Of a DNA stretch of 50,127 nucleotides, positions 1 through 28,340 are shown piece by piece. Source of the stretch: Blepharisma japonicum (Eukaryota > Ciliophora > Heterotrichea > Heterotrichida > Blepharismidae); contig CATKHK010000151.1 in the NCBI GenBank assembly GCA_949751835.1, positions 1 to 50,127 on the forward strand, written 5' to 3'. Each line of letters begins with the position of its first letter. The stretch's first letter is position 1. The notes under the pieces are model-generated. The model searched no databases and was not told the origin of the DNA. It saw only the letters and a program-made list of their open reading frames with translations. Both the position numbers and the translations under genes were made by a program.

Positions 1-109
1 GAAATATTACGTCAAAATCTTGTTTAAAAGTATCAAAAATAGCTTGTTTCAATTCATTAATATTGGAATTTTCGCTTATATTAATTGAAAAGGTCGCATA
101 TACTCTCAT
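1..109 (-). CDS. UBL-TPR-ZZ family protein A, N-terminus only (runs off left edge)
   Basis: Only the first 36 codons are in the window, starting at the ATG complementary to 107-109. They encode a beta-strand/helix start (MRVYATFSINISENSNINEL, then KQAIFDTFKQDFDVIF) nearly identical to the starts of the genes ending at 1703, 5350, 8935 and 13559. By analogy this is the beginning of a ubiquitin-like domain, followed outside the window by a linker, TPR-like repeats and zinc domains. Upstream DNA (110-337) resembles the 5' flanks of the paralogs at 3587-5350 and 7220-8935, including the AATTGAATTCAAT motif. Whether the rest of the gene is intact cannot be judged. Confidence 0.75.
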   Translation of the reverse strand, partial: MRVYATFSINISENSNINELKQAIFDTFKQDFDVIF

Positions 110-337
110 TATTAGATAATTATAATTAATAATTATATATATGAACAAGTTAAGACTAAAATAGATATAAGACGTTTAATCACATTTTATAAGACTGATT
201 CTTAATAAAGGCTTTATAAATATAATTCACATACTTACTTAAGAGAAACTTTCATATGTTTTATAGAATCATTAATCAATAATGTTAAAAAAAGGAATTG
301 CTAGAGTGCAGATAATTTAATTGAATCTTAATTGAAT

Positions 338-880
338 TCAATCTTAGATACTATATCAATACATATTATTGGAATACCAACCAGTCCGGCCAATTTTCTT
401 CTTTTGTGGCGAAAACGCCCCAATAGAAACTTTCATCAGCAATACTGGTTACATTGACTACTTGGCTCAGGAGATGCAAGCACTTGTTGTATATGCAGAG
501 CATAGATATTTCGGTAAATCTTTGCCATTTGGCAACAAGACATACACTTCATATAACATGAAGTACTTATAACCACATCAAGCTTTGACAGACTGGGCTT
601 ATTTGATCACTAATCTTAAAAAAATCTATCAAAATGTGCCAGTGATTGCATGGGGAGGTGGATATGGAGGAATGCTTTCAGCTTGAATGAGAATGACTTA
701 CTCGAACCTTATTGATGGTGTTATAGCTTCATCAGCTCTTGTCTTATATTTCAATGGGACAGTAGATCCAAATGCTTTCAATGCTTTTGTTAAAAGACAA
801 TATGCCTTACTCGAGCCTGATTGTTCCACTATATTGCAGCAGCTTTTTGATTATATTAAATCACTTTACTTAGAAGCCTG
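338..880 (+). pseudogene. truncated, frameshifted copy of the S28 peptidase-like gene
   Basis: This stretch is a close nucleotide copy of about 2030-2575 in the neighbouring S28-like gene. It has no 5' end, no 3' half, a one-base deletion in a C run near 399-402, and a TCA-to-TAA change at 570-572. Smaller compensating indels occur near 825-850. The surviving core includes GGGYGG where active S28 enzymes have GGSYGG, so the parent already lacked the nucleophile. It is joined on the left to the 5' flank of UBL gene A and on the right to the cut 3' end of UBL gene B. The in-frame TGA at 685-687 reads as Trp: the intact copy has TGG there. Non-functional remnant. Confidence 0.85.
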
Positions 881-1703
881 ACTGTGTGAAAAATCAGTTT
901 TTTGGATCGTCCTCGATGCCTTCATCGAATAAAATCAAAGCTTTTTCTTTATCTCCCAAATTATAAAGCTGTTCTATTTTTTCAACGTCGATCATTGCGT
1001 GGGTATCACTGATATCTTGCTCACTTTCTGCACATTTTTCTTTGCACAGTTTTATAATTTCAAATTTACAAAGCTTGAAAAAATTCTCTAAATCTGGATG
1101 CTGGATTAAATATATTTCAACAAATTCATCATAGAAAAGAGGATCCTTTCCTAATTGAATGATAATATTACTTCATTCTTTAATGTTCTTTATGCTCTGA
1201 AACCATTGCATAGCGTTTTGCTTTATTTGAAGGTCGTCAAAAAATATAGTTTTATCTTTTAACTGATCTTCTTTTATATCAGTTTTTATATTATGATGTT
1301 CTTGATGACTCTCGCTGTGTATTTTTGAAGCTGGCTCTTTAAGATACTCTTTTTGATTCTTATTTTCAGCTTTTACTTTGCTCTCCTCTTCATTTTCTTG
1401 CTCTTTTGAAAATTCAATCGAGTTTGTAGAATCTGCTTTCTCAGCTTCTTTAATAGATTTTTCTGCTGCCTTGGAGTAAAAACACCTATTTTTGTCATCA
1501 TTTGCTTTTAATTTCCTGAACATTAAAAATAATTTGGAATCTTGTGACACGTTTATTTTGTTTAATTCTTGGTCTTGCTTAGCTCTCTTTCCTCTAAATA
1601 TAATGTCGAAATCTTGTTCAAAAGTGTCAATAATAAGCCTTTTTAGATCATAAATGCTGGAATTTTCGTTTATTTCGACGTGAAAGTTTAAATGGATTCT
1701 CAT
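870..1703 (-). CDS. UBL-TPR-ZZ family protein B, 3'-truncated
   Basis: A 277-residue reading frame with Trp-encoding TGA at 1171-1173 and near 892. Residues 1-70 are the ubiquitin-like domain, with the family pattern FRGKRAKQDQELNKI and a hydrophobic LFLMF strand. Residues 75-150 are a Lys/Glu/Ser-rich linker. Residues 175-260 carry the family block QLGKDPLFYDEFVE, the KLCK segment and the first TPR-like helix pair (QLYNLGDKEKALILFDEG). Homology stops after DDPKN, about 17 codons before the stop, where the DNA passes into the S28 fragment. The later TPRs and both zinc domains of the full-length paralogs (571-587 aa) are missing. It shares a 170-bp divergent spacer with the S28-like gene. It is probably a pseudogene or a shortened protein. 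Confidence 0.7.
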
Positions 1704-1873
1704 TTATTATTTTATTATAATTCATTCATTATGTTATAGAAATAGATTATAAAAATATTATTAAAATAATTACTGTACAAATGTTCTTAATATTAACAGC
1801 ATAAAAAGTAAGCATTTCTTATGATCTTAATAAATTAATTCAATATTTAACCCTGCGAGGTATCTATAGATAA

Positions 1874-3307
1874 ATGTGGAGCTTTATTCTCAACTTATTA
1901 GTATCAAAGTCTTTGGGGCTTGAAGTTTCCCCAGAGGAGGATTCATTTATAGGCGCAGTTCCTCCTGGGTATGAACAGGCTAATTTTTCAGCATACATTG
2001 ACAACTGGGATTACAATTATTATCAATATAATCTTAGATACTATATCAATACATATTATTGGAATGCCAACCAGACCGGCCCAATTTTCTTCTTTTGTGG
2101 AGGAAATGCCCCAATAGAGACTTTCATCAGCAATACTGGCTTCATTGACTATTTGGCTCAGGAGATGCAAGCGCTTGTTGTATATGCAGAGCATAGATAT
2201 TTCGGTAAATCTTTGCCATTTGGCAACAAGACATACACTTCATATAACATGAAATACTTATCACCACATCAAGCTTTGGCAGACTGAGCTTATTTGATCA
2301 CTAATCTTAAAAAAATCTATCAAAATGCGCCAGTGATTGCATGGGGAGGTGGGTATGAAGGAATGCTTTCAGCTTGGATGAGAATGACTTACTCAAACCT
2401 TATTGATGGTGCTATAGCTTCATCAGCTCCTATCTTATATTTCAATGGGACAGTAGATCCAAATGCTTTCAATGCTTTTGTTACAAGTCAATATGCCTTA
2501 GTCGAACCTGATTGTCCAGACTATATTGCGACAGCTTTTGATTATATTAAATCAATTTACTTAAAGACCAGCGAGTATACTCATCTCCAAGAAACTTTTC
2601 AGACCTGCAACCCAGTTTCAGAGCCAGAAGACGTTGGACTTATTCTGAATTGGCTTCAAATTTCATTCACAGATATGACACTATATAATTATCCTTATCC
2701 TTCAAACACTGTTTTTCCACTCCCAGCATACCCTCTAAATTTAACCTGTAACATTTTCAATAACGTTAACATCAGTGATGTTTGGGAAGTCTTGAGTGCA
2801 GCCAAAAATGCTGCAAATATCTATTATAACTATACAGGCCTGAATGCTTGCAGTAACACTTATAACCCGTTGAGCCATGGAAACTTAGGGAACCAACAAG
2901 GCTGAAGCTATCTACTATGCAGCACATTGAATTTCCCATTTGGAAGCGCCCAAGAAACCTCTATGTTTGGGGATGAACCATTTGATCAAGAAGCTGTTAA
3001 TAACAACTGCTTTAACCTTTGGGGAAGAACCCCACAGATTAATTATGCAAGCCAATGGTATGGAGCAAGCAGTAATCCATTTCAGACCTGGCAGTATGCA
3101 ACCAATATCCTGTTCAGCAATGGAGAATTGGATCCTTGGCAGGTTGGATCAATCAGAGAATCATCTGACGCTAACATAATTGCCTTCGTCATGTACGGAG
3201 CTGCTTCTATGATGGACTTAAGACTGCCTAACGTTGCTGACCCTTCTGACATAATATTGGGAAGAGAGACTGAAAAGGATGCAATCCAATATTGGTTGAA
3301 CGATTAA
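1874..3307 (+). CDS. S28 family serine carboxypeptidase-like protein, catalytic Ser and His lost
   Basis: 477 residues, continuous if the TGA codons at 2285-2287 and 2903-2905 are Trp (DWAY, GWSY). The fold matches prolyl carboxypeptidase/DPP7-like secreted peptidases: GPIFFFCGGNAPIETF, then VVYAEHRYFGKSLPFG, then the nucleophile-elbow region, then NGELDPWQVGSI, then MDLRLPNVADPSDI. In active members the elbow is GGSYGG and the His motif GAHHLDLR. Here they read GGGYEG and AASMMDLR, so the nucleophile and histidine are absent while the Asp of LDPW remains. The N-terminus is hydrophobic (FILNLLV), compatible with a weak signal peptide, and several N-glycosylation sequons occur. An in-frame TAA directly precedes the ATG, fixing the start unless a short upstream exon exists. 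It is probably a secreted or lysosomal pseudoenzyme. Confidence 0.88.
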
Positions 3308-3586
3308 TTTAATCATTTATTAAAGTGTGTTATATTAATCTAGCTCTATGCTGTCTGAAATCTGGACTTCTTATCTACTTTGGCTTTATTTCCTCAGTTG
3401 GCTTTGGCTTGTTATATAACTTCTCGAATCAGAATTTTCTCTTCACAAATTCTTCGCAAAAAATTCAGAGTCTTAGTGCTGCTTGCAGTCAGTTAGAGAT
3501 TTCTGCGTTCTCAAAAGTTCATTCTCTTTCATCCTGCGGGATATGTGAATGGAAATTAAAAATTGGCTATGCTTACTCTTAGTTAC
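3308..3586. other. spacer with a possible decayed minus-strand exon
   Basis: Between two convergent stops. Read on the minus strand in one frame, the stretch is rich in Lys, Glu, Ser and Gln (for example RRMKENELLRTQKSLTDCKQ) for about 80 codons but is broken by three TAA codons. That composition suggests an old coding relic. The open plus-strand frame over the same bases is hydrophobic, has no recognisable motif, and is best explained as the antisense shadow of that relic. Confidence 0.3.
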
Positions 3587-5350
3587 TTAAGGAATTTTCA
3601 TTTTAATCATGACATGCCAAATTTTATGACCTGAATGTTTCAAACAGTTTGCAGTCTTTATTTCGCCATCAAGAAATTTATTTTGGCACCCTTCGCATAA
3701 ATGAAAATTAATGCAGCGGGCACACATGTAGAGATTGTCGTTAATTTCTCCATCACAATATCCAGAATTCGAATTATTACAGATATTTTTATGAATTTTA
3801 TTTTCTTGGTCAGATGGAAACTCTATATTTTCATGAGTAGATGCCCCGAACTTTAGCTTATTTAATTCTCTTGTTTTTGGATGGATCACAAAAGTAGAAT
3901 GTGGATGGGCAAATTTAGCTGAGCCTTTTGCATAGAGTTTAATATTTTTTTCGCAATTATCACAGTGATAATGATTTGGATTGCAATATAAGCACAAATA
4001 TTGAGTATCATTGCCAGTAAATATTGTGTTGCAAATATTGCATTTTAGCCCTTTTTTAATTGAAAATTCTGGAAATTGATCTTGAAATATTTTCTTTGCA
4101 TCAGGAAAAGTTTTATGGAAACTTTTAATTGAAAAAATTCAATCTATTTTAAAAGCACTAATAAAATATTTGATAGCTTCTTCTCTATCATCTAAATCAT
4201 AAAAAATTTCGCCCATTAAAGTTAAGAGTGTCGCTTCATTTGGCCAAATAGTAATTCCTCTACTAACTACTGATAAAGCCTCAACTTTTCTTCCAAGTAG
4301 TTTAAGAACAATCCCCCTTCAATAATATGAATTAGTCGGATGCAAATTGGTTTTTATAGCTTCATTATAAGCATCATAAGCCTCATCATTTCTACCTAAA
4401 TCTTTTAAAACAGCTATTTTTAATGAGCGCATGTTTCCATCATTAGGATTCATTTTAATACTTTTATTACAGAAATCCAAAGCTTCTTCTTTCTGTCCTA
4501 AATTATAATAGTTTTGAATTTTTATAAAATCTAGATTAGCATAATCATGCTCAATGTCCTTGGGGATAGCTTCTTGATTAAAGATAAACTTATAGACTTC
4601 CTTTTGGCACAATTTTATAATCAAAAATTTGCAACTCGTAAAAAAAGGTTTATTATTTGGGTGCTGGAATAAACTTTGCTTAACAAATTCATCATAGTAG
4701 CTAGGATCCTTTCCAATTCGCAAAATATATCCTCTAGATTCGATATCACTTGCCATCTTGCTAACCCATTGCTCAGCAGCTTGCTTTATTGAGAGGTTGA
4801 GGTTTGGAAAAGTTGGGATGCTGATGTTTGAAAAAGTTGGGAATTTTGATTGGTTTAGGTCTACTTCATGAGTTTCTGAATTATGCAATTCTTGATTATC
4901 TTTGATTTGTGCTTTTGAATTTGTTTCTGGAGAGGAATTCGTTTTATATTGATCAGCTTCTATCTTTACTGCTTCTTGGTGGCCTTGAATTTTTGAGGTA
5001 ATTTCTATTTCTTTGGCTTTGCTTGTACCATTACTTCCCTCCTTTGAGGTTTTTGAAAAATCAGCTGAATTTATAGAATCTGTTTTTTCGTCCTTATTAA
5101 TAAATTTTTCAATTGTTTTTGGGACAGAAATGCTAGAATTGGCTTTCCTTGCTTTAAATTTGCTGAACATCAAGAATATTTTGGAATTTTTTGATTTATT
5201 TATTTTATTGATTTCTTGGCCTGGCCGAATTTTCTTTCCTTGAAATATTACGTCGAAATCGTGTTTAAAAGTATCAAAAATAACTTCTTTTAGGTCATCT
5301 ATATAAAAATCTTCGTTTATATTGATGCAAAAGGCCACATTTAATCTCAT
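3587..5350 (-). CDS. UBL-TPR-tandem ZZ zinc protein C (full length)
   Basis: 587 residues, with Trp TGA at 4319-4321 and 4139-4141. Residues 1-72 are ubiquitin-like: FQGKKIRPGQEINKINKSKN then KIFLMF mirrors ubiquitin's GKQLEDGRTLSDYNIQKE then TLHLVL. Residues 75-190 are a polar linker. Residues 205-260 are a conserved helical block (RIGKDPSYYDEFVKQS). Residues 275-415 are TPR-like helix pairs (YYNLGQKEEALDFCNKSIKM, LGRNDEAYDAYNEAIK, DREEAIKYFISAFKI). Residues 433-490 are a first zinc domain (CNIC, CLYC, HCDNC, FAHPHSTFVIHP). Residues 520-587 are a second (CARC, LCEGC, GHKIWHVMIKM), both ZZ-like. ZZ domains bind N-terminal residues or histone tails, and UBL plus ZZ recalls autophagy or N-degron adaptors. 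Function here is inference. Confidence 0.85.
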
Positions 5351-5930
5351 TATTAGATCTTTATAATTGATAATTAAATAGATGTGCGCATCATAAATTG
5401 ATTAAGGCAAAACAGATATATGATTTTATAAGGCATTTTCTTTATAAATAATAATATCGGGATGTACAACAAAAAGAGACTCATATTTATGAAATCATCT
5501 ATGTGATTATATTAAAAAACGAGGAATCACTAGAGTGGAAGTGCAGATAAAATGGTTGAAGATAGCTTTAAAATCTAAAAACCTTATCGAAACCTTAATT
5601 GAATTCAATATGCTTCTTGTGCCTAATCCTTTATGATCATTTAACTGAGTTTAGCATGGTATTATTTGCTTGAGTAAGCTACTGAATGAAGATAAAACTC
5701 TCAATTCTATAAAAAAAGATGAAAAAAGTGAATCAAGATCTAATCCTGCTTGTTGGGATCAGTCTACAAATAAGTCAAGCAAATTTGGTTGATTCAAAGA
5801 GGTTATTTCACGATTGGTTTGAAATTCAAGCTCTTCAAATATAGAAACTCAGCATGCGAAATACCCTACTTAAGGAGTATAAATGATAATATTAAATTAA
5901 ATTACGGCCTTAAGACCTAAAGTCTGGCCA
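5351..5930. other. 5' flank shared with paralog D, with an unassigned open stretch
   Basis: AT-rich upstream region of gene C. About 5515-5770 is alignable by eye with 9090-9330 upstream of gene D (GTGCAGATAAAAT..., CCTTAATTGAATTCAAT, GCTACTGAAT), showing that the duplication unit included several hundred bases of 5' DNA. On the plus strand about 5650-5880 is open for roughly 75 codons with TGA=Trp (KKDEKSESRSNPACWDQS) and ends in TAA. It has no clear start and the equivalent in the D flank is broken, so it may be a relic exon. Confidence 0.4.
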
Positions 5931-5954
5931 TTTCGACTGAATTCTCTAGCTATT

Positions 5955-7060
5955 CTAGTTTTCCCTCACACAATTCATCACGAATTTCTTCCAGAAAATC
6001 TTTCTCCAATCATCCATGCTTGCTATTGGCCTAACCAAGCCATCAAATTCAAATAAAGCTGCCTTTGTAATCCTATCATTACCGACAAATGTTCCCTAAC
6101 GTGAATGATTCTTATTATTTCCGATACATCATCAATTAGTAGCTTATATAATGGTACTCTTTCTACATTATTCCCAATAAGCCTTCTAAGTCTATTAATA
6201 GCTTTAAGTCTCTTATCTTTGTATTTTATACATTGATTTACAGCTAATATTGCTGCTTTTTCCGGCTATATATTAAGTGTCATATTATTTTCATCAAATC
6301 ATTCTGAGACTTTAAGTATTATATATATATCCAATTGTCTTTATGAGGACAAGATGAATGAAGTGTTATCTGCATATTGAAAATTCGTAGAGGTTTTTAA
6401 GTCAGGAAATCTAGACACTGATATATTAATACCATCAAATTTCTTTTCCATATCATCAGCATATATATTGGACAATGTTGACTAAATCGAACTTCCCTGT
6501 CTCACTCCTTTTGTTATGAAGACTTTTTCAGTTTCAAGCCCGTTTATAACCATTGTAGTGTATTCTCCTTTATGCAATTGGGATATTGAGCATATGCTAT
6601 CTTAATGTGCTTCCTACTTTTCAGTTTGTCTATAAGCTTCCTACGCATCACATTATCATAAGCGCCTGCGAAATCAATAAAAAGAATTAGCAATCACTAT
6701 CTCTTTTTGAGAGATATCGTTTGCTCGCCTTCAAGAGTATATTTAAACAAGAAAATTTAGTAGCACAAGATAACCTGTCTTCTGGATATTTCAAGATGTT
6801 CAATTCTTTTTAGTTCAGCTTTGTCTAGTATCTTAACTTAGTATTTTCTAATGAGTTTGGTCTTTACGAATTTAATTTAGTTGAATCCCTTTATCTTTAT
6901 AAATAAAAATAGTTTTGCATCATTTGCTTCATTGGGAATTCCGAACTTTCTAAATGAGTTGAGCTCTCTTATTAAAAGCTTAACAACAATGCTCTTGACT
7001 TTTTGATAGCTTCACATGTTAAATCATTAGGTCCAGAAACTTTCCATAAGGTTTTAATCT
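5955..7060 (-). pseudogene. degenerate non-LTR (LINE-type) reverse transcriptase
   Basis: On the minus strand the RT palm motifs appear in the correct order across several frames: SGPNDLTCEAIKK (RT region 0/1), then LFLFIKIKG, then FIDFAGAYDNVMRRKLIDKL (motif A, catalytic Asp), then ITKGVRQGSSI (motif B), then FQYADNTSFIL (motif C, YADD changed to YADN), then a following SEWFDENNMTLNI block typical of the thumb approach. In-frame TAA and TAG codons and at least two frameshifts interrupt it. No endonuclease, poly-A tail or target duplication was recognised. Motif A and B wording fits non-LTR rather than LTR elements. It lies between UBL genes C and D, which are duplicated around it. Confidence 0.85.
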
Positions 7061-7127
7061 TAAGTCTTCAGGTTCATAATATTGGAGAAGAACTACCACG
7101 ATTTATTGCTTGAAATTAAGTTTAGCT

Positions 7128-7195
7128 TAATTAACATGAGTTTTTGATGCTGCAACTAGCGAGAGAGTTAAGACAGTGAGAATAATCAATTTCAT
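7128..7195 (-). pseudogene. orphan signal-peptide-like mini ORF
   Basis: Starting at the ATG complementary to 7193-7195, 22 codons read MKLIILTVLTLSLVAASKTH plus two residues and then TAA. This is a textbook secretory signal sequence with a hydrophobic core and a small-residue cleavage region, but no mature protein follows in frame. It sits directly 5' of the reverse-transcriptase relic. It may be the remaining first exon of a secreted-protein gene destroyed by the element, or a chance ORF. Confidence 0.3.
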
Positions 7196-7219
7196 TGTTA
7201 TTAAATTATCGTTTTAATC

Positions 7220-8935
7220 TTAAGGAATCTTCATTTTAATCATGACATGACTATTCTTATGACCTAATTTTTTTAAACATTCTGTAGTATTTATTTCACC
7301 GTCAAGAAATTTATTTTGGCATCCCTCACATAAATCGAAGTCTATGCAATGGGCACATTTGTAGCGATTTCCATTAATTTTCCCGTTGCAAGACCCAGAA
7401 TCAGAATTATCACAGCTACATCTATGATTTTTATTCTCTTGATCATATAAAAACTCAATATTTTTATGAGTAGAAGCCCCGAACTTAAGTTTATCTAGCT
7501 GACTTATTTTTGGATGGATCACAAAAGTAGAATGTGGATGTGCAAATTTATCTGAGCCTATTACATCGATTTTAATAATTTTTTCGCAATTATCGCAGTG
7601 ATAATGATAGGGATTACAATATAAGCACAAATATTGAATATCATTATCTGTAAATATTAAGTTGCATATTCTGCATTTTCACCCTTTTTTAATAGAAAAT
7701 CCTGGAAATTGATCTAAAAATATTTTATTTGCATCAGGACAAACTTTTTTGAAATTAGCAGCTGAATATCTTGCATCAACTTTAAAAGCAAGAATAAAAT
7801 ATCTGATAGCTTCTTCTATTTCTTTTAGATCATATAGAATTATTCCCTTTATAACTAAAAGACTCACTTCATTAGGCCAATTAAAAACACCTTCACTCAC
7901 TAGTGCTAAAGCCTCAACTTTCCTTCCAATATGGTAAAGCATTTTACATCTTCAAGAATATAAGTTAATTGGAGGCGTATTGATTTTTGTCGCTTCATTA
8001 TAAGCATCAAAAGCCTCCTCATTTCTACCTAAATCGATAAGAAAAGCAACCTTTAATGAGTGAAAAACTCCATCTTCTGGGATCATTTTTATGCCCTCAT
8101 TGCACAAATCCAAGGCTTTTTCTTTCTCTCCTAAATTATAAAGAGCTTCGATATTTTTATAGTCTAGACTGTAAGGCTTTTTGTCAGACACCTGCTCAAT
8201 TTCATTGGCTTCTTGATTAAAAATAGACCTATGAACTTGTTCTTGGCACAATTTTATGAGCTCAGATTTGCAAGCTGTAAAAACAAATTCTGTTATTCAG
8301 CCTTCAGCAACAATTTTATCATAAAAGCTAGGATCCTTTCCTATTCTAAAAATAACTTCTCTTGAATCGCTATTACTTGCCAATGATCAAACCATTTGTA
8401 TGGCAACTTGCTTTATTGAAAGATTACTCGCTGGGAAAATTGAGTCTTCTGAGTGGCTTGCTTCTCATTCATCAGTTTCTTTATGATATAATCCTTGATA
8501 TCCTTCTTTTTGTGCTTTTGAAGTTGCTTCTGAGCAGGGTTTCTCTTTTAATTGATTTGCTTCTATTTTCTCTGATTCTTGATTACTTTCCTTTTTGGAA
8601 GTAGCAGGTTTTTCTATTTCTTTGTCCTTTGAGATTTTAGGAAAACTGACTGGATTTGTAGAATCAGTTTTTCCAGCATGATCAACAAAATTTTCATTTA
8701 CTTTTGGGGCAGAAATGCTAGAATTGTCTTTGTTTGCTTTAAATTTGCTGATCATTAAGAATATTTTAGAATCCTTTGATAGATGCATTTTACTAATTTC
8801 TTGGCCTGGGTTAATTTTCTTTCCTCGAATTATAACTTCAAAATCTTGTTTAAAAGTATCAAAAATAGCTTGTTTTAGCTCATCAATATTAGAATTTTCG
8901 TTTATATTAATGCAAAAGGTTGGATATATTCTCAT
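7220..8935 (-). CDS. UBL-TPR-tandem ZZ zinc protein D (full length)
   Basis: 571 residues, running through Trp TGA codons at 8465-8467, 7952-7954 and 7679-7681 and two more near 8391 and 8298. The ATG at 8933-8935 is chosen because it aligns with all paralog starts; a longer in-frame extension to 9046 is hydrophobic and not conserved. Residues 1-70 are ubiquitin-like (IRGKKINPGQEISKMHLSKD). A Ser/Glu/Lys linker follows, then RIGKDPSFYDKIV, TPR-like repeats (LYNLGEKEKALDLCNEGI, LGRNEEAFDAYNEATKI), zinc domain 1 (CRIC, CLYC, HCDNC, HSTFVIHP) and ZZ domain 2 (NGNRYKCAHCIDFDLCEGC, HKNSHVMIKM). ZZ2 is the best preserved in the cluster. It is a close paralog of gene C. Confidence 0.85.
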
Positions 8936-9390
8936 TATTAGATTATTATTATAATTGATAATTATATAGATATGATAGAAAGGCCAAAATAAAAATATGA
9001 CTTTTAATTTTTGATAAATAATATAAAATTTAATTAAGATATCCACTTAAGAAACCTTTATATATTATAGAATCTTTAATTAGCAATGTCAAAAATAAAT
9101 TGATATAGTGGAAATGCAGATAAAATAATTAGAGATAGTTTGATAGCCCTAAAAGCTTATTGGAACCTTAATTGAATTCAATCTTACCAAAATATTAAAC
9201 TTAGTTTATCATGGCGTCTTTGATTTTAATAGGCTACTGAATAGAGATAAAGCTATTTAATGCTATAAAACCTCTGAAAAAAAGAGTAAATCAATATTCT
9301 AATCCCGTTTGTTAAGCCAATCCATATATACTTATTAATTTGAAGACAAAAGCAAGAGTCAATAAATGACAAAATATAAGATAGAAACGT
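8936..9390. other. 5' flank of gene D, homologous to the gene C flank
   Basis: AT-rich. It shares interrupted similarity with 5351-5770 and, over a shorter stretch, with 110-337 (GCAGATAA, CTTAATTGAATTCAATCTTA). No gene is visible. The equivalent of the short open stretch in the gene C flank is closed here by TAA. Confidence 0.5.
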
Positions 9391-9400
9391 ATAAACTGCC
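9391..9400 (+). repeat. left copy of 10-bp direct repeat ATAAACTGCC
   Basis: An exact copy recurs at 9921-9930, so the pair encloses the IS110-like remnant. It could be a target-site or flank duplication left by insertion. A chance pair cannot be excluded. Confidence 0.4.
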
Positions 9401-9419
9401 ATTCGGTTCGGTGCCCAAA

Positions 9420-9893
9420 CTGAGTTTTTAAAAATATTAGAAGTGATCCTGACAGAAATTACTGGGATTAAACATTAATATGTCTTGACTTTTGTCTCTA
9501 ATGTAGGATATCGATTGATACAAAAGCTTTGCATCCTGGATTGATCTGTGCTTTGGAATGAAGATTTCTTGGAGTAAAACGTCTAGTAGCAAAAGTAAAC
9601 CATGTGCCTATAGGCTCGCCGAGGAATTATGCATGGCCGCAAGTACTCTCAGTAAAAGCGAGACCTATTTTGAAGCCTTTTTGTGTAGTCTTAACGCCAG
9701 ATTAGGTTGTACCAATGCAACTACTACAGTGGCTCATAAAATGGCTGTTATCATCGGCAGCATAATTAAAAAAAGCTCAAGGATAGCACAATTAAAAATC
9801 TGCACAGCTTTACTGCAAGATATGCTCGGCGTTCAACCCCAAAAGCTCTCTCAATACACATTTCTAGCAATCAAACTGCCCAATAAATTATGA
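9420..9893 (+). pseudogene. IS110/IS1111-like transposase C-terminal remnant
   Basis: The readable frame (about 9480-9893, TAG at 9504-9506) contains, in order, the pattern of the Transposase_20 (IS116/IS110/IS902) C-terminal domain: KSFASWIDLCFG (bacterial consensus about HLASWAGLCPG), a basic SKTSSSKSK loop, LAEELCMAASTLSKSETYFE (consensus LVEAAWAASRTKGTYL), LNARLGCTNATTTVAHKMAV (consensus LAARRGKKRAIVAVAHKLLV), then IIGSIIKK. A frame-shifted EITGIK just upstream may be the IPGIG helix-hairpin-helix. The N-terminal RuvC-like DEDD catalytic half is absent. Base composition is more GC-rich than the flanks. The 10-bp direct repeat ATAAACTGCC brackets it (9391-9400, 9921-9930). It is not functional. 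Confidence 0.6.
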
Positions 9894-10107
9894 TTTGTTA
9901 TTTGATTCTTCTTGCTGTGCATAAACTGCCTTCATATCGATGCTGGGCAATATTGTCTTCTTCTCATTAACAGCTTGCCATTTAAAAAGGGCTTTATCAT
10001 GAAAATTGATGCTAATCACTTGCCCTGATAGTGCGATTTTCTTACTCGAAAGTCAAAAATATTGTTGGATAAATTCTCATAGAATTATCAAAATCGTGTA
10101 GAGAATT
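9886..10107 (-). pseudogene. unidentified minus-strand open stretch
   Basis: With TGA=Trp this strand is open for about 70 codons and ends in TAA near 9890. It has convincing coding composition: SKKIALSGQVISINFHDKAL, FKWQAVNEKKTILPSIDMKA, then VYAQQEESNNKS. There is no ATG at its start. Its upstream end abuts the start of the Sel1-like gene on the other strand, and its downstream end reaches the IS110-like remnant. It looks like the C-terminal piece of a lost gene. No family was recognised. Confidence 0.35.
9921..9930 (+). repeat. right copy of 10-bp direct repeat ATAAACTGCC
   Basis: Partner of 9391-9400, 530 bp away, immediately beyond the end of the IS110-like reading frame. Confidence 0.4.
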
Positions 10108-10125
10108 TATAAAAGGTTGCAAAAT

Positions 10126-11004
10126 ATGATGGACTCAGTTGATTTTCAAGGAATTGGAACTCCAGAAATGTTTTTTGAAATCAATTTAGAAGAAATAGAC
10201 CCTTACTCGCTTTGCTCTTTTAAAGAGCTTCAATATGAGAGGTTTGAGCAAGGGCTGGATCTTTTTATTGTTGTTATATTAGGCCAGAGATGTGTTTATC
10301 TTTTTGAAGCCTCACGCTTTATAGAGGATGGTATTAAATCTCAATGGGTGAATATAAAAAACCCATTTACTAGAGAAAATATTGATAGATTTGGTATTTA
10401 TTTCTCATCTAAAGACTCCCCTAGATTTCAGTTTTATATGAACAAAGAGGAAGTAATGGTATCTCCGAATCATTTGCCTATATTATGGAATGATCATACA
10501 AGAGAAACATATATCCGGGCTCAATTTTTGTATGCCTATGCAGAGCCTCTTCAATCAAAAAATATATACAAAGCTATAGAATTATACGAAAAATCAGCTG
10601 AGCTAGGCTTTCAAGATGCGTTACTAGCACTTTTTGATATTTATTATAATTTAAAGGACAAAGAAAATTGCATGAAATATGCAGATAAGTGAGTAGATAG
10701 TATGCCGATAAAGCACGGTGTCAATAATGCTCTCTATTTCATTAATATTATAAGAAAGGAGTTCAAGGATGAAGCTTTAGCCCTTTTTCTCCATGAAAGA
10801 CTTTGTCGAAAAACTTTTAATTGCATTCCTCTTTCACTATTGATTGACAAATATGAAAAAGGTATAGAAGTAGAGAGAAATTTATCTTTGGCAAGAGAGT
10901 GGCGACAAAGGCTTCCAGAGGGTTGGCAAAATGCCCCAATGTCTGAATTTAGAGATCATCTTCTAGAAATTAAATATAATTTTGATCGTGATAGCTATCC
11001 ATAA
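10126..11004 (+). CDS. Sel1-like repeat protein
   Basis: 292 residues, with a Trp TGA at 10690-10692. Two adjacent ATGs (10126 and 10129) begin the protein. Residues 1-120 form a compact, unassigned domain with INPFT-like wording (WVNIKNPFTRENIDRFG), faintly reminiscent of U-box or RING-like cores but without Cys pairs. Residues 125-200 contain a Sel1/TPR-like solenoid (AQFLYAYAEPLQSKNIYKAI, ELYEKSAELGFQDALLALFD, CMKYADKWVD), the pattern used for protein-protein interaction. The last 80 residues are helical with a final REWRQRLPEGW. It is a stand-alone gene between the transposase relic and the detached ZZ fragment. Function unknown. Confidence 0.75.
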
Positions 11005-11233
11005 AAATAGTACGCATATGCAGTTGGTCTACCATAAGGATTTCATTTCTTAACAATAAATAAGAATATTAAGACTTTAAAAAAGGCTAAGTGAAACAAA
11101 AAACCTTCCAGGAAGTTTCTCAGTCCATTTTTTCTTTTAAAAATGATGTAAAAAGAAAAATTTCACTTTTTTAGTAAAAACTACATCGGTAATTTGTCGA
11201 GTCTGCTCCATTTTTTAAAAAAGTATTTTTAGT

Positions 11234-11440
11234 CTTAAGGAATCTTTATTTTAATCATGACATGCCATATCATATGACCTAAATTTTTTAAGCGATATTT
11301 TGTCTTTATGTCACCCTTAAGTAATTTATCTTGGCACACATCACATAAATCAATGTCAATGCATTGGGAACACTTATAGCGAACTCCACTGATTGTCTCA
11401 TCGCAATATCCAGAATCAGAGTTATCACAGAGGTTAACAT
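11234..11440 (-). pseudogene. detached C-terminal ZZ domain of UBL protein E
   Basis: The minus strand encodes the second zinc domain and exact family C-terminus: NLCDNSDSGYCDETISGVRY, then KCSQCIDIDLCDVCQDK, then HMIWHVMIKIKIP and TAA. It has no start and lies about 0.6 kb downstream of gene E, which lacks precisely this part. The sequence TTATCACAG occurs at its broken edge (11422-11430) and at the corresponding place inside gene E (12139-12147). It is therefore probably the original 3' end of gene E, separated by an insertion. All zinc ligands are retained. Confidence 0.75.
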
Positions 11441-12062
11441 TAATTTATATGCATATTGTGAATAACAGTAAATTTTTTTAAAGTTTTGCAAAAAAACCCT
11501 AGAAAAAAATTTTGTGAATGAATTTACAACATCCTAATTTTTTCTCATTTTACAAAAGAAAAAATTAAAAATATTAAAGGAAGTTAATGGAATGAAATAA
11601 TAGAAATTTAAGGTTATTTGAAATTGTGTTATATCCAAAGAAAATGTAAACATGTGATGAATAAATGGGAAAGAGATAAGAAAATTATTTTAATTTTAAT
11701 TGTTAAGAGATTTTTATGTCAAGTTGATGGAAAAGAAGAAAATTTGAGAAGAGCATGAGCTGTATTTAAACAGCTGATAATAAAATTAAAATTAAATGAA
11801 TAAATTGGCAAATAAATTAAAGTGTAAATACTGAATAACTTATTAATTATTAGTCTATATAATAAAGATCAAATGAATTAAGAAAATATAAGCACCACAA
11901 GCTGAGTTTATTTTACTATTTAAATTTTGTGCTTCGAAAAATTGTATAAAAAAAACGTGAAAAAATTGATGTGCAGACGATAGAGAGCTCAAAATAATTT
12001 TTAATGACTGCTATAATTCCTATAACAATATATCTCGTTTATAAATTAAAAGAGTATTACTC
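11441..12062. other. AT-rich insert-like segment in gene E
   Basis: About 620-700 bp of very AT-rich, stop-dense DNA between the cut end of gene E and its detached C-terminus. No ORF, terminal inverted repeat or recognisable domain was seen. The flanking TTATCACAG copies are 717 bp apart. However, similarity to the paralogs seems to extend slightly past the left copy, so the exact boundaries are uncertain. It could be a retained germline-limited segment or another insertion. Confidence 0.45.
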
Positions 12063-13559
12063 CTAGCAATTAATATATGAATGTTTAAAAAAATTAAGTG
12101 CATGTGAGTTACAGTTAAATGCAAATCCATGTTTATACTTATCACAGAAGTACTTATGTTTTTTATCTTCTTGATCAGATGAATACTCAATATTTTTAAT
12201 AATAGATGCACCCAATTTTATATTATTTAAGAATCTTGCTTTTTGATGAATCATAAAAGTAGAATGCTGATGTGCAAATTTAGCAGAACCTTCTACATTA
12301 CATTTGACAATATTTTCACAATTATCACAATGATAATGACTTGGCTCGCAATATAAACACAAATACTGGGTATCACTGCCAGCAAATGTTAAGTTACAGA
12401 TATTGCATTTTAAGCCTTTTTTGATGGAAAAACTTGGAAATTGTTTAAAAAATATATCATTTGCATCAGGAAAAGTTTTTACGAAATTGATTTTTGCATA
12501 AAGTCTGTCAATTTCAAAAGCAAGTATGAAATATTGTATGGATTCTTCCCTCTCATTTAGATCGTTTAGAATTTTGCCTTTTTCAACTAAGAGCTCTGCA
12601 GAGTGTGGCCAAACTAAAATAGCTTGATTTATAACAACTAAGGCATCGATTTTTCTTCCCATATCCCTAAGAATTTTGCATCTTCAGCGATGGTTATTAG
12701 TTGGGGAAGAGTTAACCTTTATGCCTTCATTAAAAGCATCAAAAGCTTCATCATTTCTATTTAATTCAATAAGAATTTTTACTTTTAATTCATGAAAAAT
12801 TCCATCGTTTGGATTTGTTTTAAGACCTTGATTACATAAATCCAAGGCCCTTTCTTCTTGTGCTGAACGTATGAGTCTTTTAATCCTGTCATATTTTAAA
12901 ATAGTTTTTTCATCAGGAATTTGCTTAATTTCTGAATTGGAATAAGGCTGAGCTGCTTTTCTCTGGCACAATTTTATAATTTTAGATCTATTATCTGTAA
13001 AAAAATTTTCTAAGCTTGGCACCTTTCTCGAAATACTCTTAATGAATTCATCATAGAAATTGGGACCCTTTCCAATTAGCATAATTACTTCGTAAGGCAT
13101 GGTATTGACTAATTGCGTAGCATTTAGAGTTATAGCCGAATTGTCACCTGAAATAGCTTTATTTTTTGGCTGGCTTTCTTCTTTTTTATTATTTTTGCCT
13201 AAATCTTTCTGATTTTTGTCTTCTGCTTGAGGAAAAACTTTTGTGCTGGTATGCTTCTCCTTTGAAAAATCGCCAGGATTTGTAGAATCTGCACTTTCGA
13301 GTTGGCCAATGGAATTTTCACTTAATTTTTGAGCAGACAACATAGAATCAGCATTTCTTGATTTAGTTTTGCTGAACATTAAAAATAATTTAGAATCATT
13401 TGATATATTTATTTTGCTTAATTCATGGCCTGGCCTAATTTTCTTTCCTTTAAATATAACTTCAAAATCTTGTTTAAAAGTGCCAATAATAAGTTCCTTT
13501 AATTCATCGATGTTAGAATTTTCGTCTATATGAACATAAAAGGTCAAATTTATTCTCAT
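12063..13559 (-). CDS. UBL-TPR-ZZ family protein E, second ZZ domain lost
   Basis: 498 residues, with a Trp TGA at 12684-12686 (NHRWRCKIL) and TAG stop at 12063-12065. Residues 1-72 are ubiquitin-like (FKGKKIRPGHELSKINISND, KLFLMF). The linker is Ser/Lys-rich. MLIGKGPNFYDEFIKS and TPR-like repeats (RSAQEERALDLCNQGL, LNRNDEAFDAFNEGIKV, REESIQYFILAFEI) follow. The first zinc domain is complete (CNIC, CLYC, HCDNC, AHQHSTFMIH). After CDKYKHGF the sequence leaves the family and ends within 25 codons, exactly where the other members enter ZZ2. Its real 3' end appears to lie at 11234-11440. It is the most diverged member and is divergently arranged with the transporter at 13817. Confidence 0.8.
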
Positions 13560-13816
13560 TTTTACTTATATAAAAATTATGCAAAATTATTTTAACTATT
13601 ATATACATCTTTATTATTTTTTGCTAAAGAAAATATCTTTCTTTTAGGTCTTTATAATAATAAAATAATTAAAAGAGATATTAAAATGCAATTTACTAAT
13701 TATAATTTTCGCAAACTAATTTCCTAGATTTATTCCTTTAAATTTTCCATTATTAATCAAACCACTGTAAATTTTAACAATAAAATCAATAAATTTCAGC
13801 CAAGCTTACAATAAAT

Positions 13817-15154
13817 ATGATTAATCCAGCGGAAGCTTGTCTAAATAAAATTGGATGGGGAAAATACCAAAGAAAAGCATTCCTATGCTGTAGCGAATCG
13901 GAAGCTATGTTCATCGCAGTATCTATGCTACTCCCAATCATAGCTCTCCAGTTCGAAGACTATAGCTTTACTTTTCGAGGACTCCTTAGCTTTTTGGTTC
14001 ATTTCTGTGCCCTCATTGCGTCGAACTATTTTGGAAAAAATATCGCAACAATAAGCCATATCTCAGTTTTTAAGAACTGGGGAGGCTGGCTAATGGTCCT
14101 TGGACTGCTTAGTCTTTTGGGCTCTTCAAGTTATTTTTATGTTTTATTGTCAATGATCCCAATAGGAGCTGCTGGGGGTGCTGATATGGCAATTAACTAC
14201 TGTGTCTTATACGAAAGCATCCCAGTCCAAGACAGAGCATGCTTTAATAAAGTTCCCTTTGGCATAAACATACTTGTAACTGCTATATATGCAGCAGTTT
14301 TGGGGCTCGAAATATACGGATTTAATATAGCCCAAAATTGAAAAATCATTGTTTCGGCGCTTCTGCTGATACATATATGTTTTTCTTTTGTAAGACTTAG
14401 CTTGGTAGAAGGGCCACTTTATTTGTACCTTCAAGGGAAAAAAGAAGAGTTTAAAAAGGCTGTCAGAACTGTAACTTATAAATAGATCGTAATTGAAAAT
14501 GGACTCAAAGACACCAGCATCGAAGAAACGGTTGCATTTGATAACAAGCAAATAGACTGGTGCGATAATTTTGGCGAGCTTTTTAAAGATCCTTTATCAT
14601 CCTCTACCTTTAAACTCATGCAAATGTTCTTCTGTGCCTTCTTTGCAATTGAAGGTTTAGTCATGTTTATGCCAAGTCTTATTATATCAAGCAGCAAAAC
14701 TGAAATTTTCACTTGTTTAGCAGTCATTGAAGTCTGTGGATTGCTTTGGAAGATTTTATCTGAAGTTTTTACTTTCGGCAAAACATTTAGAAAAGCCTTG
14801 GTAATTTTGAGCTATTTCTTGATGTGTTTGATAATCCCAAGCTTTACCTATGCAAAGGAGCTCAATTGCAATTTGTGTAGCAGCGTGCTGTATGGAGTTA
14901 CGTCAAGTATTGGGATACATGGACTTTATTCGTTAATACAAGACCAATTTCCGGTGAAAAATAGCGGGCCAGCATTTAGTGTGATGGGGAGTATGGGAAC
15001 TGCTGGGAGTATGATCGGGGCATTGGTTTCAGGAGTTATTTTAGATCAACTTGGTGGATTTTATGCAATTATTGAAATTTCAATATTATTGGGGATGACT
15101 GGATTAATTGGGTTGACCTTAAAACCAATCCCTAATGAAAAGAAGACTAATTAG
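13817..15154 (+). CDS. MFS transporter, SV2/SVOP-like (copy 1, one 15-nt intron)
   Basis: 440 residues after removal of a 15-nt intron (14471-14485) and with Trp TGA at 14339-14341. Multi-spanning membrane protein of 12-helix type. The N-terminus INPAEACLNKIGWGKYQRKA is followed by helices, then GAAGGADMAINYCVLYESIP, corresponding to the SV2/SVOP/organic-cation motif (G-x-G-G-x-x-P-x-x...E-x-x-P). A cytoplasmic loop carries the intron, and a second half follows (LSSSTFKL..., GIHGLYSLIQDQFPV, SVMGSMGTAGSMIGALVSG). Without the intron the frame would end at the TAG inside it. The substrate cannot be deduced. It is a tandem paralog of the next gene, in the same orientation, 186 bp apart. Confidence 0.85.
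14471..14485 (+). other. 15-nt intron
   Basis: GTAACTTATAAATAG starts with GT, ends with AG and contains an in-frame TAG. Removing it joins AVRT to IVIENGLKD and makes the coding length divisible by three. The paralog has an intron at the same place. Its size is diagnostic of heterotrich ciliates. Confidence 0.9.
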
Positions 15155-21961: not shown

Positions 21962-24900
21962 TTAGATTAAGTAAAAGAGACTTACGAATCCCAGCAATAG
22001 CCAGGAAATTCCTAACTCCAAAGCTCCAGAGCTCCTATCAATGCAACTGTCAGTTGAATTGCTGAACCTCTTAGAGGTATCCGTACAAGAGCAAGTGCCA
22101 TTCCTATTATTAACCATATTATCAGAGTCATAACAACTCAAACAGTTATTCTTTGCCTGACAGCTGCTACAAGTTTCATCACACTTCAGACAAGATTGAG
22201 TATCTTCATCAGGATACATATGCAGTGGACAGGTGCATTGATGCGTATCAGTATTAAAGTTCTGTAGAACATAAGAGCACACACAATTTCCTTTTCCAGT
22301 ATTCGTCATATTCGCCTCAAAACACTGTGTACAAAAAGTTGCGCTTCCACAAATTTCACATCCAGACTGACACTGTGCACAAGTGTCAACATTTTCATAA
22401 AACCCAGAATTGCAGATACAATTAGGATCATTCTGCTTGAAGCTGGCATTCGGGTCATTGCAGACACAAATTCCGTTTTTAAGGGTTGAATGAGCGTCAG
22501 AGCAAGTCTGGCAGTTATTAGCTGCTGTACAAGTGACGCAGCCAGGAGGACATTGGTCACAGGTGTTTCCGTTTTGATAGTAGCCTACAGAGCATACACA
22601 GGTCTGGGTGGCTACGTTATAGGTCCAAGCTGGAGTCCCATTACAATGACAAGCTCCATTTGTCAATGACTGCTGGTTTTGGTCAAAGCATTGGGTACAT
22701 TCAACTGCTGAGGTGCAGGTTTCACAGCCTAAAGAGCAAGCTTCACAAGTATTTCCATTCTGGAAGTATCCGTTATTACAGACACAAAGGTGTTGGTTAT
22801 CATTATAAGTTGAGTTAGGGTCATCACAGCTACAAGTCCCATCATTATCAATAGTCATATTTGGATCCCAACAGGTCTGACAGTTAGCTAAACCTGTACA
22901 GACTTTGCAGCCTTCAGAGCACAAAGTACAAATTCCTGAGTTATTAGGGTCGCTGAAATACCCAGAATTACAGACACACATATTTGTGTTAGGACTAATA
23001 TAAGCGTGTTCATCATTGCAAATGCATTGGTTTTGCTGTCCATTGTAGGTTGCTTTAGGATCATAACATTCTTGGCAGAATGAATTAGAATTACAAGTTT
23101 TGCAGCCACTAACACATGCAGAACATACAGTGCTTGAGGAGAAGTAGTAGCCTTCATTGCAGACACATGCATTATTTATTAAGGTAGAGACGTCTGGACA
23201 TGCACAAATAGGAGCTGCTGACATGTGGGTGGAGTCTATGCATGTAGTGCAGCTGTTAGCGGATCCAGAGCATGTAGCACATTGGGTACCACAAGCTGAA
23301 CATTCAGTAGAAGAGCTGAAGTAATAGCCAGTATTGCAGACACAAGCAGTATTAACGAGAGATGATAATGCAGGGCAGGCACAGGCAGGGGCTGCTGACA
23401 TATGAGTTGTATCAGTGCAAGTTAAACAGTTAGTTGAAGAGGTTTCACATGAATTGCAGTTAGGGGAACATGCAGAACAGACTGTAAGGGAACTGTAATA
23501 AAAGCCAGTCTGACAAACACAAGTTTGGCCTTGCAAAGTACCGTTTTCTGGGCAGAGACATGTAGGGGCAGCAGTCATATGGGTAGGATCAATACAAGTT
23601 GTGCAGGTAGCTGAGTTTGTTTGACATGTTGCACACTCAGGATCACAGGCAGAACATATAGTATTGCTGCTGAAATAAAACCCTGCATTGCATTGACAAG
23701 TTGCTCCTACCAAAGCCCCATTATTTGGGCAAGAACATGTAGGTGCTACTGACATATGAACGGTATCAACACATGCTATACAATTGGCCGCTGAATTTCT
23801 GCAGGTTGCACATTGACCGTTGCAAGGTGAACAAGTGCTTCCACTCAGCCAGTATCCATTAGCACAGGAACTGCAAGTAGTTGGGGACCCAGAACATGCT
23901 GTACAAGTAGGATCACAGGCTATACAGGTATTGGTGCTGAGATAGTATCCAGGGACACAGGATTGGCAAGTGGTGGCAGTTCCTGAGCATTGCAAACAAG
24001 GAGTTTGACAAGCATCACAAGTCCCAGCGTTATTGAAAAAGCCAAAATTGCAAGTACAGACTTTTGATTCAACTACAAAAGATGCATTGGGGTCTTTGCA
24101 TGCACAAGTATTGGTGGTTGGATTTAAATTCATGTTATTTTGGTCATTGCAGACGGTGCAGGTAATTGCAGATGTAGAGCATTGGGCACATGGTGGAGTA
24201 CAGGCAGAGCAAGTGCCTTGATCAAGCCAAAATCCACTAACACAAGCTGTACAAGTAGTTATAGTCGTAGTGCATTGTGTGCAAGGCAATTCGCATGCTG
24301 TACAAACGCCAGCAATACTTGTATATCCTGAATTACATTGGCAAGTAGCAGTTTCTATGTTAAATGACGCATTTTGATCAGTGCATGCACAATTTCCACG
24401 ATTTAGGGTCATATGTGTTGGATCATCACAAGATAAACATGTGGTTGGATCAGTATCGCATGTTGCGCATGGAGCTGTACATGTGGTACAAGTATTAGCA
24501 TGAAGATAATAACCATTGATGCATTGAGTGCATGTAGTAGCTGATCCCGAACATTTAGAGCATGGTGGAGTGCATAGGGAACAAGTTGTAGGTTGGCTAT
24601 AAAAATATCCAGGATTACATTGACAGCTTCCATCAACTAATGCACTATTTTCTGGGCAGCTGCAATCTGGAGCGGCTGTCATATGAGTTGGATCAATACA
24701 GGCCTGGCAATTAGTAGATGATGCTGAGCAAGTTGCACATTGATTAGCACAAGCACTGCAAGTAGTGCTTGCACTAAAGAAATAGCCTGCATTACAAACA
24801 CAATTTGCTCCTGTTTGAACTGAATTAGATGGGCAGGCACATGCTGGTGCAGCTGTCATATGAGTAGTATCGGTGCAAGTTACACAAGTCGCAGCAGTAT

Positions 24901-27900: not shown

Positions 27901-28340
27901 AGGATTTTTTTATCACTAAGCTCACATCTCTTTGATGTGATAATTCCTTTATTTTTATTGCTGACAGCAATAATAGCAACATCTGCTATAAGATTTTCAC
28001 TTTTTAAGGCCTGGCTGGACTCGATATCTGTGCATCGATTATTCTCTCCAAGTCTGAGCTGTTCTGTTGAAGACCTTGTGAGTACCAAATCAGAAATAAT
28101 TTTCGCTGAAGTCTTCAAAGTCAGCTGCAGGTTTCTAATGAGTTCCTCATCTACAAAGGATTTTCCAATAACTTCAGTATGGATCTCTAAAGGCATGAGG
28201 TCTTGTTGGTGAAACTCGGCAAGCCTTTTCGGAGTGAATTGAAGAGTATCACTGGGGTCTTTAGCTTTAAATTGGGAAGAAGAAGCCACAAGACTAAGAA
28301 ATGTGAACATGACGACCCATAGGACAGTTCCTTTCAACAT
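21962..28340 (-). CDS. giant Cys-rich repeat surface protein 1, probably GPI-anchored (contains assembly gap)
   Basis: At least 2092 residues, interrupted by a 100-N gap at 27204-27303. The ATG at 28338-28340 (MLKGTVLWVVMFTFLSLVAS) is chosen because paralog 2 starts identically; it opens a signal peptide. Residues 20-215 are a unique N-terminal domain (DTLQFTPKRLAEFHQQDLMP). From about residue 220 onward the protein is almost entirely CxxC modules (CNSNCATCQDAAATCVTC, CACPTNGALSGTTCVC), 59 residues long in the regular part, more varied toward the C-terminus. It ends in a hydrophobic tail (SWLLLGFVSLFYLI) without a cytoplasmic part, as in GPI signals. The pattern recalls ciliate immobilization-antigen-type surface proteins and furin/VSP-like Cys repeats. 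Frames on the two sides of the gap agree only if the true gap length is a multiple of three. Confidence 0.85.
24780..27610 (-). repeat. 177-bp tandem coding repeat array
   Basis: Within Cys-rich gene 1, near-identical 177-bp units (59 codons) repeat in register. For example, the CCTGAGAGAG landmark recurs at 25341, 25518 and 25695. A more divergent block at about 25750-26170 interrupts the regular units. Further degenerate units extend to about 23100. Homogeneity of the central units implies recent unequal exchange or gene conversion. Confidence 0.9.
27204..27303. other. assembly gap (100 N)
   Basis: Exactly 100 N, a conventional placeholder. The bases on either side (GCATTA and CAAACACAAG) join to form the normal unit sequence, and the frame is restored if the gap is 0 or n x 177 bp. 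It therefore marks collapsed or unresolved repeat units rather than a break in the gene. Confidence 0.95.

Follow-up and report, generated by a model that had tools for sequence, protein, structure and literature searches.

Transposases of the IS110 family, for which the NCBIfam model NF033542 serves as reference, comprise a RuvC/DEDD part (Pfam PF01548) and a Tnp region (PF02371), with IS621 as the solved example. IS elements are described as elements of prokaryotic genomes (PMC11208158, available part). Eukaryotic genomes with IS110 genes carried along by bacterial DNA are nevertheless already in print. According to the available portions of the reports, Trichomonas vaginalis has an IS116/IS110/IS902 transposase gene, TVAG_243580, within its bacterial insert TvLF (PMC4082486), and an IS110 family transposase is listed with a Wolbachia-derived insert on scaffold741 of the ant Formica exsecta (PMC6469114). 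Further bacterial IS-type sequences in eukaryotic genomes, as cited in the accessible part of PMC10045372, are an IS5-like element in a bdelloid rotifer (single-copy by title) and IS481EU in parabasalids.

This study concerns a stretch of 50,127 nucleotides from the ciliate Blepharisma japonicum (contig CATKHK010000151.1), hereafter the window. On sequence comparison, two collinear pieces at 9395-9779 are homologous to IS110 transposases. The favored reading, given a probability of roughly 0.85, is that the nuclear genome of a Blepharisma-like ciliate took up bacterial DNA with the 3' part of an IS110 gene, and that this DNA then decayed there as non-functional sequence. The locus would thus resemble TVAG_243580 as an IS110-family gene that entered the genome of a protist along with bacterial DNA; the latter, as far as its report is available, sits in a recent bacterial gene cluster and shares 94% identity with a gene from bacteria, whereas here a lone broken fragment is found. 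The ant case likewise has an IS110 gene in or beside bacterial DNA of a nuclear genome, but in the part of that report at hand it has a named donor and inserts of tens of kb, in contrast to a short fragment without a donor match. The rotifer element and IS481EU, to the extent covered by the source above, belong to other transposase families, and IS481EU is a proposed eukaryotic superfamily rather than one decayed copy. Neither an earlier ciliate IS110 case nor a mention of IS110 together with Blepharisma was found among the papers listed from a collection with few subscription papers and no preprints. If the favored reading is true, DNA of an RNA-guided recombinase gene is shown entering a ciliate nuclear genome, and the fate of such DNA is shown as well, namely truncation and breakage without expansion. 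The locus adds a small data point on transfer to protists that feed on bacteria and does not constitute a new system.

IS110 homology of the main fragment

The main fragment, or core, occupies 9519..9779 on the forward strand and corresponds to the C-terminal Tnp region of IS110 transposases (model positions 323-409 of 452). It is read in frame +3, which from 9531 onward also contains the peptides quoted in an earlier, sequence-only reading as IS110 C-terminal signatures; these indeed match IS110 C-termini. When the core was compared by tblastn with 72,556 plasmid records (7.3 Gb), 16 records matched (best E 2e-5), seven of which are annotated as IS110 or IS116/IS110/IS902, two as transposase, and one as hypothetical, with no gene listed for the other six. 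In the reverse direction (tblastn, plasmid proteins versus window), the core locus was the top match of all eight plasmid IS110 proteins used, with E-values of 3.3e-6 to 6.5e-10, the lowest being that of a Nostoc IS110 protein (43% identity over 77 aa); the eight queries were picked from the core-versus-plasmid result and are hence not fully independent.

Profile searches, proposed earlier as a check, gave a divided answer. Against the whole 45.2-Mb genome, NF033542 reached E 5.8e-4 at 9477-9773 with 23.5 bits, the curated cut-off being 140. Of its four matches at E<=10 genome-wide, the IS110 fragment is the sole one at E<=0.001, the next having E 0.098, and on the ORF alone the NCBIfam scan gave IS110 at E 0.011. 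By contrast, neither PF02371 (0 matches) nor PF01548 (0 matches at E<=1) recovered anything in the whole genome, and the ORF scanned with Pfam and PHROGs had no IS110 match. A profile of 60 relatives, each at least 400 aa long and chosen by likeness to the core, places the core with a domain E of 4.3e-24, a value that is partly circular and inflated because the relatives were found using the core itself. The evidence free of this circularity consists of the plasmid tblastn value and the NF033542 value.

The missing Pfam and PHROGs matches and the NF033542 score far under its curated cut-off are what would be seen if chance resemblance, or another protein family, explained the IS110 likeness. 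This explanation is already refuted by the tblastn values, i.e., E 2e-5 in 7.3 Gb and 6.5e-10 in the reverse direction, together with a second collinear piece that outscores 1000 random sequences, and it retains practically no probability.

A second fragment and a broken reading frame

The second fragment lies upstream of the core in another frame, collinear with it, at 9395..9514 on the forward strand (model positions 279-315). The 60-relative profile aligns its model positions 268-316 from 9368 to 9514 with E 7.6e-5, and according to the posterior line of this alignment the confident start is at ~9395-9407. Read in the frame from 9395, the stretch 9395-9521 scores 13.3 bits against the relatives' profile, with no reported match for the other two frames, and 1000 random sequences matched in dinucleotide composition, each read in three frames, scored 5.7 bits at best; E rises to 0.011 if the search is extended to the entire window plus 20 kb of contig C88. 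The profile used here was, again, built from relatives found with the core.

On the IS110 profile the two fragments are adjacent and in order, and between them, at 9515..9518 on the forward strand, the frame breaks (model coordinates 316 to 323): four nucleotides stand where six profile positions (18 nt) are expected, a net loss of 14 nt. The profile alignment and the frame reading also place an in-frame TAA stop at 9476..9478 (forward strand) in the second fragment. With this stop and the break, the reading frame of the IS110 transposase is not intact. An intron as the cause of the break was rejected because introns of Blepharisma stoltei add sequence, mostly 15-16 bp (PMC9942806, available part), whereas relative to the profile the window lacks 14 nt.

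Outside the two fragments, little of the gene can be traced. Model positions 1-267, the region of the RuvC/DEDD domain, have no significant match in 9047-10116 or elsewhere in the window, and the expected place of the last 43 model positions, 9780..9920 on the forward strand, has no detectable similarity (tail-profile best E 0.23). Full-length copies with DEDD residues, which the earlier reading had suggested to look for, were not found; the searches recovered the fragment only, and no RuvC part. A search of the window at Rfam gathering thresholds gave 0 matches, which says little on bridge RNA. Compared with IS110-family transposases, the locus is thus alike in the sequence of the C-terminal Tnp region and different in having no RuvC part found, a frame break, a stop, and the loss of the invariant Gly after the aligned Ser discussed below; unlike IS110-family elements, it has no element ends seen in the window.

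The same alignments bear on the argument from the genetic code. Upstream of 9519, frame +3 contains TGA at 9486 and 9516 plus one TAG within the NF033542 match, and two of the eight tblastn matches extend upstream to 9462 in this frame. Reading frame +3 here, TGA included, was rejected, given that the frame from 9395 yields 13.3 bits with the others unmatched; this frame has no TGA and a single TAA (9476). Both Trp codons of the core are TGG, and the TGA at 9891 in frame +3 falls past the detectable match. It had been claimed that a Trp-coding TGA lies inside the fragment, pointing to drift to the host code or to a code-4 bacterial donor. Since neither matched frame contains TGA, these code arguments fall.

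Decay versus constraint

The fragment is regarded as a pseudogene because of the TAA at 9476, the net loss of 14 nt, and the loss of near-invariant residues. Among 83 distinct relatives, 20 columns are at least 98% invariant, and the window keeps 10 of them; in a leave-one-out control, the worst relative keeps 95%. The lost residues include both Gly after an aligned Ser. This Ser codon (TCT), followed by Trp (TGG), is at 9567..9572 on the forward strand and falls opposite the presumed S241 when one relative is aligned with IS621 (8wt6). S241 is the catalytic Ser of IS621, with a role described for S241/G242 (PMC11208158, in the portion available). The assignment of S241 rests on the sole Ser-Gly pair there, the numbering being two off in the chain, and its equivalence with the codon at 9567 is unsure because the distinct relatives are split between Ser (48) and Thr (35) in this column. 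The next column is Gly in 83/83 distinct relatives and Trp in the window. As a side observation, if the column at 9567 is the catalytic place of IS621, many IS110 relatives would use Thr.

The core, in turn, has remained open. Frame +3 has no TAA, TAG, or TGA over 9519-9890, between the TGA codons at 9516 and 9891, and random sequences contain an open frame of at least 123 codons in 0.27% of cases if three stops are counted and in 3.4% if two are. Where the core has a gap, 82 of the 83 distinct relatives also lack a residue. For the first, second, and third codon positions, identity to 88 relatives amounts to 0.53, 0.66, and 0.31, which is the signature of a coding past and would imply protein-level constraint during much of the divergence. 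The core differs from its best relatives in ~52-54% of amino acids, and simulated neutral decay to 48% identity (400 runs) left the frame free of TAA and TAG in 9% and free of any stop in 3.5% of the runs. A stop-free core is therefore rare under neutral decay, so that either most of the divergence predates the decay or some constraint persisted. It is inferred that the divergence accumulated mostly in an unsampled lineage of bacteria, with decay in the ciliate as the later part; a period of constraint within the ciliate may have occurred as well.

The open frame bears directly on whether a functional or recently functional ciliate product exists, in which the Tnp region would be kept as a small protein, with a putative ORF at 9558-10031 (157 aa in code 4). 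The length of the open frame, seldom reached in random sequence, and a core left stop-free where neutral decay seldom leaves one are in line with such a product. However, half of the near-invariant positions are gone, including both Gly after the aligned Ser, no RuvC partner was found, the ORF continues past the homology into unrelated sequence, and the genome is without a second copy, which together make it very unlikely. The specific variant that ciliate use of a putative small Tnp protein kept 9519-9890 open long after transfer, as a domestication lately broken or still working from the ATG at 9558, is considered highly improbable.

Base composition, which the earlier reading had noted, is indeed locally enriched in GC, with 0.381 at 9391-9930 versus 0.256 at 9047-9390 and 0.323 at 9931-10116. 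GC3 is 0.40 in the core and 0.29 across 16 host ORFs, compared with a GC of 0.27 for the remainder of the window. The evidence from composition is mixed because, despite this higher GC3, the GC1 of the core (0.30) is already under that of the host ORFs (0.40).

Relatives and copy number

A scan of prokaryote genomes gave 270 relatives, and the 80 kept are all bacterial by title. The closest among these 80 of 270 is from a Desulfobacteraceae MAG (48% identity); other kept relatives are from Chlamydiae, Legionellaceae, Burkholderiales, and many cyanobacteria. In a tree of 90 rows (84 different) and 86 columns, the window forms a long branch (1.04), and no well-supported set holds it. The nearest relatives by path, i.e., a gammaproteobacterial MAG, Chlamydiae, and Desulfobacterales, were rejected as an indication of the donor, being not trustworthy with no supported partner. 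A viral route was also tried and set aside: one of 25 candidate viral-contig stretches encodes a relative, and two Wolbachia phage records matched with E 0.02 and 0.6.

The genome has one copy of the IS110 fragment by DNA, by protein, and by the NCBIfam profile, and none by either Pfam model. On these counts, the suggestion that the fragment represents an unrecognised eukaryotic IS110 lineage could not be upheld. An active lineage of this type finds no support, as there are neither several copies nor an intact copy.

The locus in its host genome

The surroundings of the fragment point to a Blepharisma-type heterotrich. Trp codons were counted in 16 of 22 window ORFs with 200 aa or more, leaving out the long ORF at 21962-27637, the overlapping one at 27201-28364, and four more that overlap the former; 44 TGA and 74 TGG codons were found, and the flanking ORFs use TGA=Trp. 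The related B. stoltei has TGA=Trp, CCCTAACA telomere repeats, and a 41-Mbp somatic genome (PMC9942806, available part). In the present genome, three CCCTAACA units in a row were counted at 168 places, 77 in forward and 91 in reverse orientation, and the pattern read backwards had 0 occurrences. Among the contigs listed, CCCTAACA arrays lie within the first 421 bases in C11, C36, C47, C69, C78, C80, and C89, and form one cluster in C4, C5, C6, C7, C17, and C38.

On the upstream side, the flanking host gene (7220..9046, reverse strand) has, by domain scan, TPR and ZZ zinc-finger domains with a weak ubiquitin match, and is a tandem paralogue. Downstream, a single-copy ORF with Sel1 repeats (10117..11004, forward strand; E 1.6e-6, 28.9 bits versus a cut-off of 30.7) encodes 295 aa with one TGA and has no other match at E<=0.01 in its own genome; it may have arrived with the IS110 fragment, and has one weak plasmid match (E 0.02). 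Other scanned neighbours have S28 peptidase, TauE, ankyrin-exonuclease, WD40, and kinase domains, and the ORF at 13817-14485 has no domain match.

The fragment sits in a spacer between tandemly arrayed TPR/ZZ genes; the array is present in the window (C151) and at the start of C88. Homology of this spacer to two paralogous units ends at ~9330 and resumes at the 3' end of the next gene at ~11200, delimiting a block at 9331..11200 (edges approximate) that holds the IS110 fragment and the Sel1 ORF and has no counterpart in either compared unit. In the C88 unit, ~150 nt lie between the corresponding spacer edges. The unit at 3587-5350 has, in the corresponding place, a decayed reverse-transcriptase relic (5755-7190, reverse strand; RVT_1 at 6221-6556, E 2.4e-4, under the cut-off), this being one of the 41 places that RVT_1 matches genome-wide at E<=1; none of its three separate pieces was matched in Pfam. 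Being absent from the two compared units, the block is unit-specific, as a later insertion would give; loss from the other two units would leave the same pattern. Two further observations concern the array itself. The TPR/ZZ paralogues in 1-13564 of the window and 1-13122 of C88 share 72-84% DNA identity in their matched parts, and both contigs begin inside or near the array, perhaps one array split by assembly.

The fragment was also said to be bracketed by a 10-bp direct repeat. Exact copies of ATAAACTGCC are present on the forward strand at 9391..9400 and 9921..9930, but they are a weak boundary mark: when pairs were simulated, chance produced a 10-mer shared at two places in 0.24% (+-20 nt) or 1.3% (+-40 nt) of them, and among pairs of places taken from the window at a distance of 530 bp the proportion was 2.6% or 5.3%. 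The confident start of the homology falls at the first copy. The repeat is not an IS110 end; it may have been duplicated when the DNA was captured. Insertion by the IS110 element itself was rejected because the homology begins partway into the gene and neither repeat copy lies at an element end.

Horizontal transfer, which the sequence-only reading had put forward, is the best reading because an IS110-derived remnant with bacterial kin lies inside the DNA of a TGA=Trp ciliate. The source of the transferred DNA would be a bacterium that served the ciliate as food or lived inside it. A piece with the 3' part of the transposase gene would have entered the spacer of the tandem array, probably as a linear fragment via break repair and not by the RNA-guided recombination of IS110, and decay would have followed its arrival. 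The fragment is most likely a fossil of bacterial DNA between genes, not a working element. Against this reading stand the stop-free core, the Pfam models that miss the fragment, and the tree, from which no donor clade was recovered.

A competing explanation is that the assembly is chimeric or contaminated, with a bacterial read fragment joined into a ciliate contig. Such a junction would fit a single, GC-richer copy with bacterial kin in a contig that begins inside a tandem array, which is hard to assemble, and stocks of B. stoltei are fed bacteria or algae (PMC9942856, available part). A contaminant would, however, be expected to be intact and longer, whereas here a frame-broken pseudogene of ~0.4 kb lies in a spacer, 9 kb into the contig; it is flanked on either side by ORFs that use TGA, eukaryote-type domains occur among the scanned neighbours, and the other bacterial IS markers PF01609 and PF01797 have 0 matches each. 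Contamination or chimerism is accordingly judged unlikely, and the embedding between host-type genes on both sides is as seen in the assembly.

Two minor observations concern other parts of the window. Beside a truncated array copy at the window start, the stretch 346-900 on the forward strand looks, by eye, like a pseudogene of carboxypeptidase S28, and a gene of the S28 type is located at 1874-3307. Farther away, at 21962-28364 on the reverse strand, a 1891-aa ORF and an overlapping 387-aa ORF are free of TGA codons, which the remaining long ORFs without overlap do contain, and the 1891-aa ORF lies, for most of its length, in a stretch with a GC content of 0.42-0.45.
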